Below are positions 40,496-50,992 of a stretch of DNA of 64,000 nucleotides, one piece after another. The DNA comes from Planctomycetaceae bacterium. Its GTDB lineage: Bacteria; Planctomycetota; Phycisphaerae; SM23-33. Location of the stretch: the NCBI GenBank assembly GCA_039680605.1, contig JBDKTA010000025.1:124001-188000 (forward strand), written 5' to 3'. Below the pieces are notes generated by a model. The model searched no databases. It saw nothing but the letters and a program-made list of their open reading frames with translations, and was not told the DNA's origin. Position numbers and translations under genes: made by a program. Positions within the stretch are counted from its first letter, which is position 1, and every line of letters starts with the position of its first letter.

Positions 40496-43117
40496 ATGAC
40501 TTTGACCGCTAAATTGCACCGTCTGACTGTACTGGCCGCCTTGGCACTGATTCTGGCTCTATGGCCCATCGCCGCGGCGCAGAACGCTCCCGCCCCGGCA
40601 GCGACCCAACCGGCCGCCACCGCCGCCGCAGCAGCGCCGAACGTCTCGTACGGCGGATTGCTTGATATCGCCGTCGCGGGCGATTTCGGAAAAGCCTACG
40701 CCGCCTTTCAACGCCTGCCCTCGGCCGGTCCAGACCGACAGGCGGCGCTGGCGCTGTTGGGAAGGCAGGTCGAGCGATCGACGGCCAACGCCCGCGAGCG
40801 CGAGGGCGAGCTCGACGACGCCGTCGCCCGCGTGAAGCAGGCGATGCTCGCACAGGAACACCAGGAACCGCTCAAGAAGAGCGGCCTCTTCGACCGCCTG
40901 CGCGACGCGGTGGGCAAGCTCGTGCTCGCTTACGGCGAGGTGGGCAACGGCGACGACCTGCCGCTGATCAACGCCGAGGCCGCCGCCCTGCGCCGCACCA
41001 AGACGCTCGAATCCCTGGACAAGCTCCCGCCGCTGATCGAGTCCGTCAAGGGCCTCGTCGCCGCCCAGAACGACCCCTACGCCGCATCGGTGCGCGAGAT
41101 GATCGCCCGCACGGTGGCTCGCCTGCAGGACGTGCGCCAGGCATGGCAGGGGGCTGACTTGAAAACCCCCTCCGCCCGCGTCGACGCCAGCGGCGTGCTG
41201 TGGGAAAAGCAGACCGATCTGGCCCTGAGCATCACCGACATCCAGGGCATGGTCGTCCTGAAGCCCTGGCACATGGCCCTGGCGCAAGCTCGCCTGGCGC
41301 AGGAACTGGCCGGGCAGGATCATTCGTATAGCGAGCAGGACTGGTACAAGACGCTCATCGCCGCCACGCTCGCCCGGGCGGACAAGGCCGCCGCCGACGC
41401 CCGCTGGTTCGAGGCGCTGACGGCATACAGCGCGCTGGAGGAACTGGCCAAGGACCTCGACGCCCAGCGGGAGCAGTTCTACGCCGACAAGGCCAAGCTT
41501 GCCCGCCAGCACGTGCGCGTGCTGAGGCTATACGGCGACGCCGGGGAGCTGACCGCCGAGGAGGACGCCGTCCTCAACCCCGGCGCCACGACCCGCCCGG
41601 CCAGCGCCAAGGCCGAAGATTCGCAGACCTCCTGGCGCGACATGACCAGCGGGATCGACGCCAACATGGTCAAGCGTGCCATCGAGCGCCTCAACGATTC
41701 GTACGTCACGACGGTCGATTACCGCAAGGTCATCCAGGGCAGCCTGCAGGCCGTTCGGGTGCTGGCCACGACGCCCCAGGCGCAGAAGTCGTTTCCGTTG
41801 CTGAGCGAGGCGGCGCAGCGCGACAAGTTTGTTTCGGCGATCGACGCCCAGCTCAAGATCGCCCAGACGCGCGACAACCTCGACCAGCTCGACCTGACGC
41901 TCGCAATGGACAGCGTGCTGCGGGCGTCGGAGACTTCCGTGCGGATCCCCACCAGCGTGCTGGCGATGGAGTTCGCCGACGGGCTGCTGGACGAGTTGGA
42001 CCGCTTCAGCTCGATGATCTGGCCGTATGACGTGTCGGACTTCCTCAAGCAGACCATGGGCGAGTTCTTCGGCGTGGGCGTGCAGATCACCAAGGAGCCC
42101 GGAGAGCCCCTGGAGGTGGTGACCCCCCTGCCCGATTCGCCGGGCTTCCGCGCCGGGCTCAAGGTCGGCGACAAAATTCTCAAAGTCGACGGTCGGGCGA
42201 CCGAAGACCTCAGCGTCGATAAACTCGTTCGCATGATCACCGGCAAGAAGGGCAGCACGGTCGTGCTGACGATCACGCGGGCGGGCATGGTCAAGCCCAT
42301 TGACGTGCCCATCGTTCGCGACGAAATCCACATCCGCACCGTCAAGGGATGGCGCATGGCCAACGACGGCAAGTGGGATTTCTGGCTCGACGAACCCAAC
42401 AAGATCGGCTACATCCGTCTGACGCAGTTCACTGACACGTCGCACTCCGACATGCTCGAGGCGATCAAGGAACTGCGCGCCGGCGGGCTCAAATCGCTGA
42501 TCCTGGACCTGCGGTTCGACCCCGGCGGACTGCTCAACGAGGCCACCAAGATCGTCGACGAGTTCGTCAGCAGCGGACGCATCGTCTCAACGCGCGGACG
42601 CCAGGTGCCCGAGAGCCCCCGCAACGCCCATCGCAGCGGGCAGTTCCTCAGCGGCGACCTGGTCGTGCTGATCAACGAGCAAAGCGCCTCGGCCTCCGAG
42701 ATCGTCTCCGGCGCCCTCAAGGACCTTCGCCGGGCGACCATCGTCGGCCGCCGCAGCTACGGCAAAGGCAGCGTGCAGAACATCATCCCCCTGGAAGACA
42801 AGAAGGCCTTCCTCAAGCTCACCACGGCGTACTACTATCTTCCCTCAGGACGGCTGCTGCACCGCAAGAACGGCAGCACCGAGTGGGGCGTGGACCCGGA
42901 TGTGGTTGTCGGCGTGACGCCTCGCCAGATGAAACGTTGGCAGGACATCCGCCGCAAGACAGACCTGCTGATGGACATCGATCCTGCCGCCCTCACCGAC
43001 GCGCTCAAGAAACAGTACGAAGCCGACATCCAGCTCAATTCGGCCGTCACGCTCCTGCGCCTCAAAGCCCTGCGCGACGCCCTTCCGGGAAATAAAGCCA
43101 TCGCCGACGTAAAGTAG
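40496..43117 (+). CDS. exported C-terminal processing peptidase (S41 family) with PDZ domain
   Basis: An 873-residue periplasmic protease, about twice the length of CtpA. Layout: signal peptide (VLAALALILALWPIAAAQ); a long helical region (about 45-500) without a recognised domain; a PDZ domain (about 525-605, PDSPGFRAGLKVGDKILKV) that binds unfolded C-termini; then the S41 domain (about 620-800). The dyad is visible as Ser732 in NEQSASASEI and Lys757 in GRRSYGKGSVQ, with the 25-residue spacing seen in Prc. The start is uncertain: AGGAG is only 1 nt from ATG 40496 but 7 nt from TTG 40502 (removing two residues). The downstream gap is filled by hairpin repeats. Confidence 0.92.
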   Translation: MTLTAKLHRLTVLAALALILALWPIAAAQNAPAPAATQPAATAAAAAPNVSYGGLLDIAVAGDFGKAYAAFQRLPSAGPDRQAALALLGRQVERSTANAREREGELDDAVARVKQAMLAQEHQEPLKKSGLFDRLRDAVGKLVLAYGEVGNGDDLPLINAEAAALRRTKTLESLDKLPPLIESVKGLVAAQNDPYAASVREMIARTVARLQDVRQAWQGADLKTPSARVDASGVLWEKQTDLALSITDIQGMVVLKPWHMALAQARLAQELAGQDHSYSEQDWYKTLIAATLARADKAAADARWFEALTAYSALEELAKDLDAQREQFYADKAKLARQHVRVLRLYGDAGELTAEEDAVLNPGATTRPASAKAEDSQTSWRDMTSGIDANMVKRAIERLNDSYVTTVDYRKVIQGSLQAVRVLATTPQAQKSFPLLSEAAQRDKFVSAIDAQLKIAQTRDNLDQLDLTLAMDSVLRASETSVRIPTSVLAMEFADGLLDELDRFSSMIWPYDVSDFLKQTMGEFFGVGVQITKEPGEPLEVVTPLPDSPGFRAGLKVGDKILKVDGRATEDLSVDKLVRMITGKKGSTVVLTITRAGMVKPIDVPIVRDEIHIRTVKGWRMANDGKWDFWLDEPNKIGYIRLTQFTDTSHSDMLEAIKELRAGGLKSLILDLRFDPGGLLNEATKIVDEFVSSGRIVSTRGRQVPESPRNAHRSGQFLSGDLVVLINEQSASASEIVSGALKDLRRATIVGRRSYGKGSVQNIIPLEDKKAFLKLTTAYYYLPSGRLLHRKNGSTEWGVDPDVVVGVTPRQMKRWQDIRRKTDLLMDIDPAALTDALKKQYEADIQLNSAVTLLRLKALRDALPGNKAIADVK

Positions 43118-43443
43118 GCCCCACGGCACGGGCGTCTCGCCCGAGAGTAGCACGGGCATCTTGCCCGTGAGTAGCATGGGCGTCCCGCCCATGCTCTTGC
43201 CGTGTGGCATGGGCGTCTCGCCCATGCTCCCGCTGTGTGGCATGGGCGTCTCGCCCATGCTCCCCGATCTCTGAGATCAGGGACACGCACAACGGAGTTG
43301 TGCGTGGCACCCTTCTCACCTGTGCTCTTGCTGCTTCCCCATGGCGACCCGCTTCGCGTGTTGCCATGCCACTCCTCTTCTTTTCTCTTTTGGTTCTTGT
43401 TTCTTGCTTCGTATTTGTCGTTTCGAATTTCGAATTTATTGTT
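43118..43443. repeat. gene-free gap of hairpin arrays between the S41 gene and clpB
   Basis: Successive units: cacgggcg-tct-cgcccg, cacgggca-tct-tgcccgtg (43152), three catgggcg-tct-cgcccatg type units (43177-43261) at 33-bp spacing, the 33-bp cacgcacaac-gga-gttgtgcgtg module (43280-43312), then ccatggcgacccgc/gttgccatgcc words (43339-43373). The last 70 bases are T-rich with ttgtttcttgcttcg and gaatttcgaattta words. Genes on both sides converge here, but no classic terminator is seen. Confidence 0.85.
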
Positions 43444-46044
<2,601 letters not shown>

Positions 46045-46125
46045 GAATGCACCCCTTCCTCATGAAGGGTATGCAAACTGCGTACCGGATGCAAATGCCA
46101 GCCGCCAGGGCCCTGCCTCAGTCAT

Positions 46126-46280
46126 GGGAAAAGTCGCGGCAGAGGCACCAAGTATTTATCAAAGCCGTTGTCTGGCTTTGATGAATACTTGCGCTGGGCG
46201 GGGGTACATGGCCCCAAATGAAGAAGTAATTCACACAACGAATTACTTCTTCATTTAGTGCCTCCGCCGCGACTTTTCCC
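46126..46280. repeat. nested palindrome with cloverleaf geometry upstream of clpB
   Basis: The outer arms 46126-46148 and 46258-46280 pair over 23 bp with one mismatch. Inside are a 17-bp stem with one T-G pair (46150-46166 / 46174-46190, 7-nt loop gttgtct), a small GGGG/CCCC stem (46201-46215, 7-nt loop), and a perfect 17-bp AT-rich stem (46216-46232 / 46240-46256, 7-nt loop acacaac). The whole region can fold as a four-armed cruciform. There is no ORF inside and no recognised family. The AT-rich arms contrast with the surrounding DNA. Confidence 0.95.
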
Positions 46281-48021: not shown

Positions 48022-49535
48022 TGTCGTATCTCCAGGCGCGGGGCGTTGGGGTTGGTCTTGGGCTCGTAGGCGCCGGCCTGATATTCCTTCGTCGTCAGCG
48101 GATAGCGAGTCCAGTTGCCGCCCAGACCGCTGGCCGAAAGACGCAGACCGCAGTTGGGCGCCCCGGACAGCCACGCCTTGACGATCTCCGTCACGTCGAC
48201 GGCGACAGGTCCGGCCTTGCGGTCGTCGGCGACTGCTTCGCCCCCCGCGACGATCGGCGTCTCGTACGGTTTGGCCGCATCGAGGGGTTGAGCCAGGCGG
48301 CTGACGACCAGCGGACTGCCGGCAAATGGGGCCAGGCCGGTTTCGTTCAGGTGCAGGTACAGCACGGCCGAGTGCAGCGGCTTGGAGCGGTCGATCTTCG
48401 ACAGGTCGAACTGCAGGAATCCTCGGATGAAGTGATGATGCTGCGTGCCGACGGAGGTGGCCAGTCGACCTATGCAGCGATCGGCCGGGCGGAAGTTCGA
48501 TGCGTCGGCGATGCGGCAGTGGCTCGCGGCCAGCGTGGTGATCGTCGCGCCGGCCGCGGCGGCGGGCACGGGCGGAATGTTGGGCATCTTCGGTCGATCG
48601 AGCGCGGCCAGCGGGTCCGGGTTTCGCGGGACGGACATGGTCTTTTCGCCGATGGCCTTGAGCTGGGCGAGGAACTTGGGATTGATCAGCCCGGTTCGCA
48701 TCGGCGGGGTGTCCCAGGTGGTGACGCCGCCGTTGGCGGCGATGGCGGCGGTCATGGCGGCGGCCTCGGCGTCGGAGAAGCGCGGGTAGTTGTCGCCTCG
48801 CGTCTCGACCTCTTTCCAGTTCGTACACCACGACAGCGCCAGGTGCGAGAGCATGTGCCACTGCACGCCTTCGATGAAGCGCCCATAGCATTTGCCCTCG
48901 CGCGCGGGGCGCGTGTTGCCCGCGGCGAAGTCCTCGTATGGGCTGTTGCGCTGCTGGCGTTTGGGCCCGGCGAAGGCGAGGATCGCGTCGGGGTTGCCCG
49001 CGCGGGCGGCCGCGGCGATGGCCTTCTGGCGGTCCTCCTGGAACATCGAATTGTTATCGAGCCACCAGCCGCTGACCTTATTGCCGTACCGCAGCGACAG
49101 CTCCCGGATGACCTTCTCGCTGCGTTGCCAGCCGTCGCCGCCCATACCGGTGGGATAGTACAGCATCAGGCGGATGTTCTTTTTCGCCAGCGAATCGGCC
49201 AGCCGCGGGATCAGGTCCACGGCGGGGAGCTTGCCCCCCTCATCCTGCGCGTTGGGGCACAGCGGGAACCCATAATGCGTAGCCGTGATGACGAGATACC
49301 CCGCCTTGACATCGGCGAGTTGCTGGGCAAGCCCGTCGGTGTCGAACTCCCGCAGCGTCTTGTTCCAAAGTTCGCGATCTTCGATCTTGAGCCAGGTGGC
49401 AACAAAATGATACATGACGCCCCATCGCGCCTCATGGAACCAGTCGGTGCGATGTTTCGCCGGCAGATCGGCCGCCGCACAAATCGGTGTGATCGCCAGG
49501 ATGACTGCGGCAAGAAAAACCTTTTTGTTCGTCAT
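48018..49535 (-). CDS. secreted GH29-like (alpha-L-fucosidase-type) protein with DNRLRE/CBM96-like tail
   Basis: A 505-residue exported protein. After the signal peptide (VFLAAVILAITPICAA), the N-terminal TIM-barrel domain (about 25-320) resembles GH29 alpha-L-fucosidases: RTDWFHEARWGVMYHF, GYLVITATHYGFPLCP, LMLYYPTGMGGDGW and GWWLDNNS, whose Asp sits where the GH29 nucleophile is found. The last 170 residues (SAVLYLHLNETG, VDVTEIVKAWLSGA) look like a DNRLRE/CBM96-type module, thought to bind polysaccharide. ATG 49535 is chosen for its AAGGA site; the longer open frame is repeat DNA. Two paralogues are at 56448 and 57492. Fucose specificity is inferred, not shown. Confidence 0.8.
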   Translation of the reverse strand: MTNKKVFLAAVILAITPICAAADLPAKHRTDWFHEARWGVMYHFVATWLKIEDRELWNKTLREFDTDGLAQQLADVKAGYLVITATHYGFPLCPNAQDEGGKLPAVDLIPRLADSLAKKNIRLMLYYPTGMGGDGWQRSEKVIRELSLRYGNKVSGWWLDNNSMFQEDRQKAIAAAARAGNPDAILAFAGPKRQQRNSPYEDFAAGNTRPAREGKCYGRFIEGVQWHMLSHLALSWCTNWKEVETRGDNYPRFSDAEAAAMTAAIAANGGVTTWDTPPMRTGLINPKFLAQLKAIGEKTMSVPRNPDPLAALDRPKMPNIPPVPAAAAGATITTLAASHCRIADASNFRPADRCIGRLATSVGTQHHHFIRGFLQFDLSKIDRSKPLHSAVLYLHLNETGLAPFAGSPLVVSRLAQPLDAAKPYETPIVAGGEAVADDRKAGPVAVDVTEIVKAWLSGAPNCGLRLSASGLGGNWTRYPLTTKEYQAGAYEPKTNPNAPRLEIRQ

Positions 49536-49565
49536 ATTCGTTCCTTCATTGGGTGCCATGGCGAT

Positions 49566-49677
49566 CTTTGTGGCATGGGCGTCTCGCCCATGCTCTTGCT
49601 TTGTGGCATGGGCGTCTCGCCCATGCTCCCCGACCCTGAGGTCAGGGACACGCCCAACGGCGTTGTGCGGGGCACCC
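49566..49677. repeat. two hairpin units and the 33-bp gggacacgc module
   Basis: Two catgggcg-tct-cgcccatg units (about 49576-49594 and 49609-49627, 33 bp apart) are followed by gaccctgaggtc and the 33-bp module 49645-49677 (30/33 identical to 43280-43312). The order is the same as at 43210-43312, so the array moved or duplicated as a block. It ends 1 bp before the stop codon of the next minus-strand gene. Confidence 0.9.
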
Positions 49678-49678
49678 A

Positions 49679-50992
49679 TTACTTCATCGTCAGCTTGATC
49701 AGGCGTCCGTCGGCCGGGCGCAGGGTCAGCTTCACTTCTCGCTGGAACTTCCTGGCCTCTTCACCGGCGGCGGGGACGAGTTCGGCGCTCTGAACGGATG
49801 GGCCGAACGTCAGGCTCACCTCGCGGGGCTTGAGGGCATCCTCGCCCTTGAGAATCGCCGTCCGCGCGTCGATGAGCATCACGTAGTGCGGGGTGTTGGC
49901 GCCGCTCTTGAAGTCGGCCTCCTTCACCAGCACGCCGGCCATCAGGGCTTCGTCCATCTTCTCGATGAGCTTGCCCTCGCCGGCGATCAAGGCGCTCTTG
50001 ATGATCTTGGCCTTGGTGTTGCCCGGTGCGTCGGGCTGGGAGTGGAACACGCCGATGCTGCGGTGCCCCAGCACGCGCGGGCCGATCACGTCGGCGACAA
50101 GCTTATTGACGTCGCGTGCGGCCGCATAGCTCGACCCGTTCGTCTGCCAGATCTCGCGGGCGGTCGAATAGCCGAAGTACACCACACCCTGGGCGCCGTA
50201 GGCAATCGGCGCCAGCACCATGAAGCGGATCTCCGACGCCCCGTGCAGGCTGCCTTGTGACTCGCCCTGGCCTTTAGAAATTGTGGCCGCCGGGAGCATC
50301 GGCCAGAACGCCATGTTGGCTTCGTTGGCCATCCGCCGCCCCGCCTCCATCCAGTCGCAGTAGTCGTTTCGCTTGTCGTGCGGCCAACCCTTGTTGTCGT
50401 AGCCGAACCCGTCGTGCTTCATGCGCCCGAAGGTCTCCAGGCTCAGGATCGCCACGCCGGCCTTGGCCTGGCCCGTCAGGTCGCTGCAATGGGCAATCCA
50501 CGGGAAGTGCCCGCTCTTGAGGTCGTCGACGGCCTTGGCCTCGGCCGCCAGGCGCGAGGGCATGGCCTTGCCGTACTTGGCGCCGACCTGGTAGCCGACG
50601 ACCGTCTCGCTGGCGGCGTACTTCTTTGCCGCGTCGGCCACGCTCGAACCCTGCTCGATCGGGTGCGTGCGTTTGGTGCCATGCACGTCACGTTCCTTGA
50701 GCGTGTCGGAGACCATAAGGCTGACGATCTGCTTGACCTTGGTCTTCTCGTAGAACGGCAGCATGTAGCCGGTCTCGATGGCGATGTTGAAGTTGGCGGC
50801 CTCAAGATTCTTTGCATAATCGAGCGTGTAGTCGGTGCCGGGATAATTGTGGAAGCAGAACGCCGCGATGCCGAAGGCCTTGAACTTGTAAGGCTTCATG
50901 CACTCCAGCGGTTGATTGAGTTCCTCCTCCGCCGCCCAGGCCGGAGCGGTCACAGCCAAAATCAGGGCACAGGTCCACATCAACTTCTTCAT
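49679..50992 (-). CDS. secreted hypothetical protein, candidate TIM-barrel glycoside hydrolase
   Basis: A 437-residue exported protein (signal peptide KKLMWTCALILAVTAPAWA). The body is alpha/beta with aromatic-rich loops (AAFCFHNYPGTDYTLDYAKN; WPHDKRNDYCDWMEAGRRMA; GAQGVVYFGYSTAREIWQTN), the kind of pattern seen in glycoside-hydrolase-like barrels, and a C-terminal beta domain (EVKLTLRPADGRLIKLTM). I cannot name the family or the catalytic acids. It is the gene upstream of the GH29-like gene on the same strand, separated by a repeat array, which suggests joint use in glycan degradation. Confidence 0.65.
   Translation of the reverse strand: MKKLMWTCALILAVTAPAWAAEEELNQPLECMKPYKFKAFGIAAFCFHNYPGTDYTLDYAKNLEAANFNIAIETGYMLPFYEKTKVKQIVSLMVSDTLKERDVHGTKRTHPIEQGSSVADAAKKYAASETVVGYQVGAKYGKAMPSRLAAEAKAVDDLKSGHFPWIAHCSDLTGQAKAGVAILSLETFGRMKHDGFGYDNKGWPHDKRNDYCDWMEAGRRMANEANMAFWPMLPAATISKGQGESQGSLHGASEIRFMVLAPIAYGAQGVVYFGYSTAREIWQTNGSSYAAARDVNKLVADVIGPRVLGHRSIGVFHSQPDAPGNTKAKIIKSALIAGEGKLIEKMDEALMAGVLVKEADFKSGANTPHYVMLIDARTAILKGEDALKPREVSLTFGPSVQSAELVPAAGEEARKFQREVKLTLRPADGRLIKLTMK

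Follow-up and report, generated by a model that had tools for sequence, protein, structure and literature searches.

What a large four-armed palindrome represents immediately upstream of a clpB gene is the question raised by a 64,000-nt stretch of Planctomycetaceae bacterium DNA (GCA_039680605.1, contig JBDKTA010000025.1, positions 124,001 to 188,000), the whole of which is referred to here as the window. The palindrome occupies a 155-bp block at positions 46126 to 46280. The clpB gene (43444 to 46044, minus strand; recognized from its open reading frame and the Pfam domains Clp_N, AAA_2, and ClpB_D2-small) lies outside the element and starts at 46044, 81 bp away. A preliminary description, which gave this distance as 80 bp, had proposed a mobile noncoding element, an extruding cruciform, or a transcribed structured leader. 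We conclude that the block is probably part of a nonautonomous, noncoding, MITE-like element, the complete form of which has IS66/ISBst12-type ends (5'-GTAA-N3-YTCAG...) and generates 8-bp target duplications. Its status as a mobile element is well supported; the case for an IS66-type MITE is good in a related genome, G023, fair in the genome that contains the window (the host genome), and not made in a second relative, G005.

All parts of the block are given on the plus strand and were both read from the sequence and recovered by folding, except where other evidence is named. The 23-bp left outer arm (46126 to 46148), which is common to all copies, pairs with the 23-bp right outer arm (46258 to 46280) with a single mismatch, A46141 opposite C46265. 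Hairpin 1 (46150 to 46190) has a 17-bp stem with one T-G pair (strands 46150 to 46166 and 46174 to 46190; loop GTTGTCT, 46167 to 46173), and its pairs are conserved across copies. Hairpin 3 (46216 to 46256), conserved in all three genomes described below, has a perfect 17-bp stem (46216 to 46232 and 46240 to 46256; loop ACACAAC, 46233 to 46239). Between them is a variable center (46191 to 46215), recognized by its mean pairwise identity of 57% between copies, which includes a stem at 46201 to 46215 (GGGG, 46201 to 46204, and CCCC, 46212 to 46215; loop TACATGG); this stem is absent from the consensus structure of the host-genome copies. The loops of all three hairpins are 7 nt long, and the geometry is thus exactly that originally described. 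The predicted RNA fold has an energy of -101.2 kcal/mol; dinucleotide-shuffled sequences give -40.1 ± 3.6, and none of 200 folds as well (z = -17.0). The DNA fold has an energy of -63.6 (z = -16.5), and the fold of the opposite strand is equally good (z = -16.3). The stems had been called AT rich, which is correct for the two inner 17-bp hairpins only, the outer arms being GC rich toward their inner ends. The likeness to a tRNA cloverleaf holds in outline but no further: a cmscan search with the tRNA model found a tRNA elsewhere in locus L002 and none in the element.

A DNA search of the host genome found 33 full and about 7 partial copies, spread over many contigs, with only one cloverleaf in the window. 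Two of the loci (L021 and L025) have identical flanks and represent a local duplication of one site. Mean identity between copies is 93 to 95% in the stems, 75 to 79% in the loops, and 57% in the center, and just outside the arms it is 29%, near background. The 155-bp core contains no gene, and dispersal of many copies without a transposase gene is what is expected of a MITE. By a crude tiling of open reading frames, 28 of 38 copies are intergenic, the figure for positions drawn at random from the same loci being 4%. Their neighbors are many unrelated genes in all orientations, and clpB is one of these, an incidental neighbor. Three further host loci (L034, L037, and L039) are deleted copies; two lack hairpin 3 and keep both outer ends, and in the other, hairpins 1 and 3 are fused. 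Solo arms (REP-like unit GCCTC...GAGGC) in L071 to L076 look like decayed pieces.

A covariance model built on 30 host-genome copies was searched against 397 sampled genomes of the class, and the only matches outside the host genome were in Planctomycetales bacterium isolate CSMAG_1105 (G023) and in G005, which represent other genera of the same family. A second model, built from all three genomes and searched against 38 genomes of the order, found tens of copies in each of the three and no convincing copy in any other; marginal matches in G002 and G007 were unrelated long hairpins. The exact host-genome pattern had no match in a collection of genome contigs, and the hairpin 1 pattern recovered there only G023 and six chance matches, all simple hairpins (in Clostridium, Sporosalibacterium, Vibrio, Photobacterium, and Prochlorococcus). 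Two viral matches were also simple hairpins, and the plasmid search returned none.

The same core is therefore present in two relatives, as the covariance-model search shows, and its stems have been rewritten there. The three-genome alignment was fitted to the structure and is nearly gap free in the arms. When the most frequent pair of each genome is compared, both partners differ at 22 of the 56 stem pairs with pairing held, and 10 of these are in the outer arm (21 pairs), which reads GGGAAAAGTCGCGGCGGAGGCAC in the host genome, GAAAAGAGCAAGTCAGGCACAC in G023, and GGAAAAACCCCCGGCGGGGACAC in G005. Within each genome, 91 to 94% of the alignment cells are Watson-Crick pairs and 97 to 98% are standard pairs, and two-sided changes already occur at five pairs among the host copies. 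Hairpin 3 is kept in all three genomes; hairpin 1 is kept in two and is degraded in G005. With these compensatory changes and roughly 40 copies in the host genome, the block is not a one-off duplication. A set of G023 copies (L111 to L119, L121, L150, L154 to L157, and L161) contain further palindromic repeats, CCTGCCTGCCGGCAGGCAGG among them and others that are longer; these sit in loop 3 or the center in every case and never in a stem.

The limits of the mobile unit are clearest in G023. There, the core lies inside a longer unit with the tips GTAA...TTAC, with GTAAGAGTTCAGCCCTATGCAGAA at the left end and GTAACTATTCACCCAATTGC, read inward, at the right end (TIRs GTAAGAGTTCAGCC and GTAACTATTCACCC), and in every case the core is accompanied by its two dissimilar flanks, in one constant orientation. 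Outside the GTAA tips are 8-bp direct repeats, many of them exact: when the offsets are fixed, 7 to 8 of 8 positions agree in 11 of 18 copies, compared with 0.32 expected from shuffled partners, and the larger copies with other repeats in the center or loop 3 have exact duplications too. In the host genome, the TIR (GTAATGCCTCAGTC; tip form GTAATGCCTCAGTCATGG) is recognizable on at least one side of 19 of 32 copies, and exact 8-bp duplications are found at the expected offsets in 4 of 32 copies, versus 0.08 expected. Examples of the duplications are CCCGTGGC (L031), GCAGACGC (L005), ATTTAGGA (L092), and GAATATTA (L105). The IS66-type character of the ends is clear in G023 and seen in about half of the host copies, but G005 copies have neither GTAA ends nor a target duplication at any fixed offset. 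The host TIRs are also much less conserved than the core, the reverse of what is expected of a simple MITE.

The window copy retains part of this arrangement. A left TIR remnant (46110 to 46125, plus strand), GCCCTGCCTCAGTCAT compared with the family consensus GTAATGCCTCAGTCAT, matches the TIR pattern better than any other site in the window, with 2 mismatches, and its score against the family TIR exceeds the 99% shuffle threshold. It retains TGCCTCAGTCAT at 46114 to 46125, directly left of the core. Beyond 46280, neither a right TIR nor a target duplication is recognizable. The GTAA tip is mutated. The insertion in the window is old and incomplete, its right end having been lost.

TIRs with an 8-bp duplication indicate a DDE enzyme rather than a RAYT, and the ends point to the IS66 family. 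In sister genomes, IS66-family genes lie between perfect or near-perfect TIRs that match the cloverleaf-element ends in layout and sequence. One such element (L132; 1,640 bp) has GTAACTCTTCAGCCGTCTGC at both ends; in another (L130; 1,617 bp), also compared as GTAACTCTTCAGCCGTCTGC, the ends agree at 19 of 20 positions, and in a third (L131) they agree at 17 of 20. The transposases were confirmed by NCBIfam and Pfam, with NF033517 above its cutoff. These three elements and ISDge4, of the ISBst12 group of IS66, share the GTAA-N3-YTCAG ends; the TIR of ISDge4, GTAACTGCTCAGCA, is close to the host-genome tip, and the 8-bp repeat reported for it (PMC12898284) corresponds to the duplication seen in G023. 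Repeats of 8 bp are also given for IS66 elements of Paracoccus (PMC3281130), and no clear 8-bp duplication was seen for the IS66 elements examined in the sister genomes. The resemblance is confined to the tips: IS66 transposons are about 1.6 kb long and carry a transposase gene, whereas the cloverleaf element, which is gene-less, measures about 190 to 240 bp, or more where it contains inserts. The matching TIRs are found in sister genomes only, and because no IS66 gene or remnant is present in the host or G023 assembly, both of which are incomplete, the transposase partner is one that we infer from the element ends.

Under the MITE-like reading, an IS66-type DDE transposase would act in trans, cutting at the GTAA-type ends and inserting the element mostly into intergenic DNA. 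The cloverleaf core would be kept at the DNA level in active source copies, through a structure-dependent fitness of the element, template-switch homogenization of its arms, or both. Once inserted, copies would decay neutrally, and the window copy would be a decayed insertion that came to lie upstream of clpB by chance. Of the three original proposals, it is the mobile noncoding element that the dispersed copies, 8-bp duplications, IS66-type termini, and compensatory changes in two other genera bear out.

For the upkeep of the shape, there are two main candidates, DNA-level selection and template-switch correction, with an RNA role less likely. The one-sided changes among 30 host copies comprise 17 G-T and 15 A-C pair types, about equal, so that neither strand is favored; a DNA-level constraint or correction in source copies, followed by neutral decay, fits this pattern. 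It is possible, if somewhat doubtful, that the nested stems have no function at all and that template switching between inverted repeats during replication re-perfects the arms, the two-sided changes being purely mutational. Template switching has been described as creating and maintaining hairpins through apparent compensatory changes (PMC8794818), and it agrees with changes to full Watson-Crick pairs, few G-T states, and no strand bias. It concerns the maintenance of the shape and is compatible with mobility. However, those same one-sided changes stand uncorrected in many copies, which indicates that correction is inefficient after insertion, and it is the whole four-armed layout, not one inverted repeat alone, that persists in G023 and the host genome.

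We regard it as rather unlikely that the four-armed structure does work of its own, as a conserved cloverleaf of DNA (either extruded or single stranded) that is needed for mobility or for tolerance beside genes and persists while the transposon ends change. The ends would then be of the GTAA/IS66 type in two genera and of another kind in G005. This reading keeps some weight because G005 lacks GTAA ends and duplications and the host TIRs are less conserved than the core. The extruding cruciform first proposed would be compatible with the mobile-element reading.

The G005 copies, which end at CGACCG|GGAAAA...TTTTCC|CTGGCG, mean either that the ends have been replaced while the core persisted or that the core is an independent unit. 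In the latter case, which we consider quite unlikely, the 155-bp core would be moved by another enzyme (for example, a hairpin-recognizing Y1/HUH or another DDE enzyme) and would, in two lineages, sit inside IS66-type terminal repeats or have captured them. Besides the lack of a GTAA TIR and of a fixed-offset duplication in G005, the sharp fall of host-genome conservation outside the arms (from 0.94 to 0.29) is consistent with this, as are a host TIR pair around a different repeat and a TIR common to other small G023 elements (L149 and L158). The joint travel of core and flanks in one orientation in G023, with duplications outside the GTAA tips, argues against it, as do the other palindromes carried at the ends of host-genome Y1 transposase genes. 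The host TIR pair just mentioned, TAACGCCTCAGTTATGGG...TAACTGAGGCATTG, surrounds a GC-rich repeat in L069 (C25:93600-94600). The other small palindromic elements of G023 (L149, L153, and L158; 118 to 303 bp) have GTAACANTTCA ends, one of them with an exact 8-bp duplication, and are part of a wider set of small IS66-type elements.

A structured RNA that is retained for an RNA function, whether as a family of small RNAs or as a 5' leader (in this case that of clpB), is very unlikely. In its favor are the very stable fold on either strand, the stems that change on both sides, and the position of the site, 81 bp from clpB on its upstream side. However, the strand-symmetric single changes disfavor an RNA encoded by one particular strand, the copies have unrelated genes as neighbors, in every orientation, no Rfam family matches the element at an E value of up to 1 in L001, L002, L031, or L042, and a scan found no sigma-70-like promoter or terminator nearby; the leader proposal is not upheld. 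Nor does the complementarity of loops 1 and 3 (GTTGTGT and ACACAAC) help; perfect only in the majority subfamily, it is equaled in 37 of 300 shuffles and does not covary, and a kissing interaction was rejected.

Bacterial MITEs have been described as stem-loops, with CIR a two-arm exception (PMC2229807 and PMC10969869). ERIC, Correia/NEMIS, RPE, and QMITE2 are likewise small, gene-less, and intergenic, with TIRs, target duplications, and a stable fold (PMC2229807 and PMC10969869), but they are described as long stem-loops, whereas the cloverleaf has a closing stem around two strong conserved hairpins and a variable center, and from genus to genus its stems have been rewritten on both sides. 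The CIR repeats of Caulobacter and Brucella share two hairpin arms with a linker and a structure conserved across genera (PMC2229807); as described, they differ in having no enclosing outer stem and a GANTC motif at a loop. Among the described elements covered by our literature survey, which is incomplete, we found no nested four-armed form. The family adds a well-marked group of small IS66-ended elements in Planctomycetota. It also provides a natural series, one nested palindrome rebuilt with different letters in three genera, with which one can ask whether selection acts, at the DNA or RNA level, on the stable folds that small mobile elements of bacteria adopt or whether these folds are a by-product of template-switch correction.

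REP/REPIN sequences with a RAYT (Y1) are also palindromic, intergenic, multicopy, and noncoding, but no RAYT of the host genome has the cloverleaf-element ends. A RAYT/REPIN origin was rejected on the basis of 15 Y1_Tnp loci in the host genome, which share no arm or hairpin with the element and have different ends. At a RAYT locus of the host genome (L082; C68:95185-98520), the gene has several REP-like palindromes, copies of AAGTTGGGACGCTTACTACTTTT, in its flanks. Elsewhere in the window, at 42835 to 43290 and 49414 to 49698, short repeats translate in several frames as MGVSPM, HGRDAHAT, or AWASRPC; these are a separate dispersed family of the host genome. Repeat peptides of the HGRDAHAT/MGVSPM type and a Y1_Tnp (RAYT-like) domain are both apparently in frame within a 545-amino-acid, electron-transfer-flavoprotein-like open reading frame of the host genome (L086; C4:17939-21112; gene assignment by eye).
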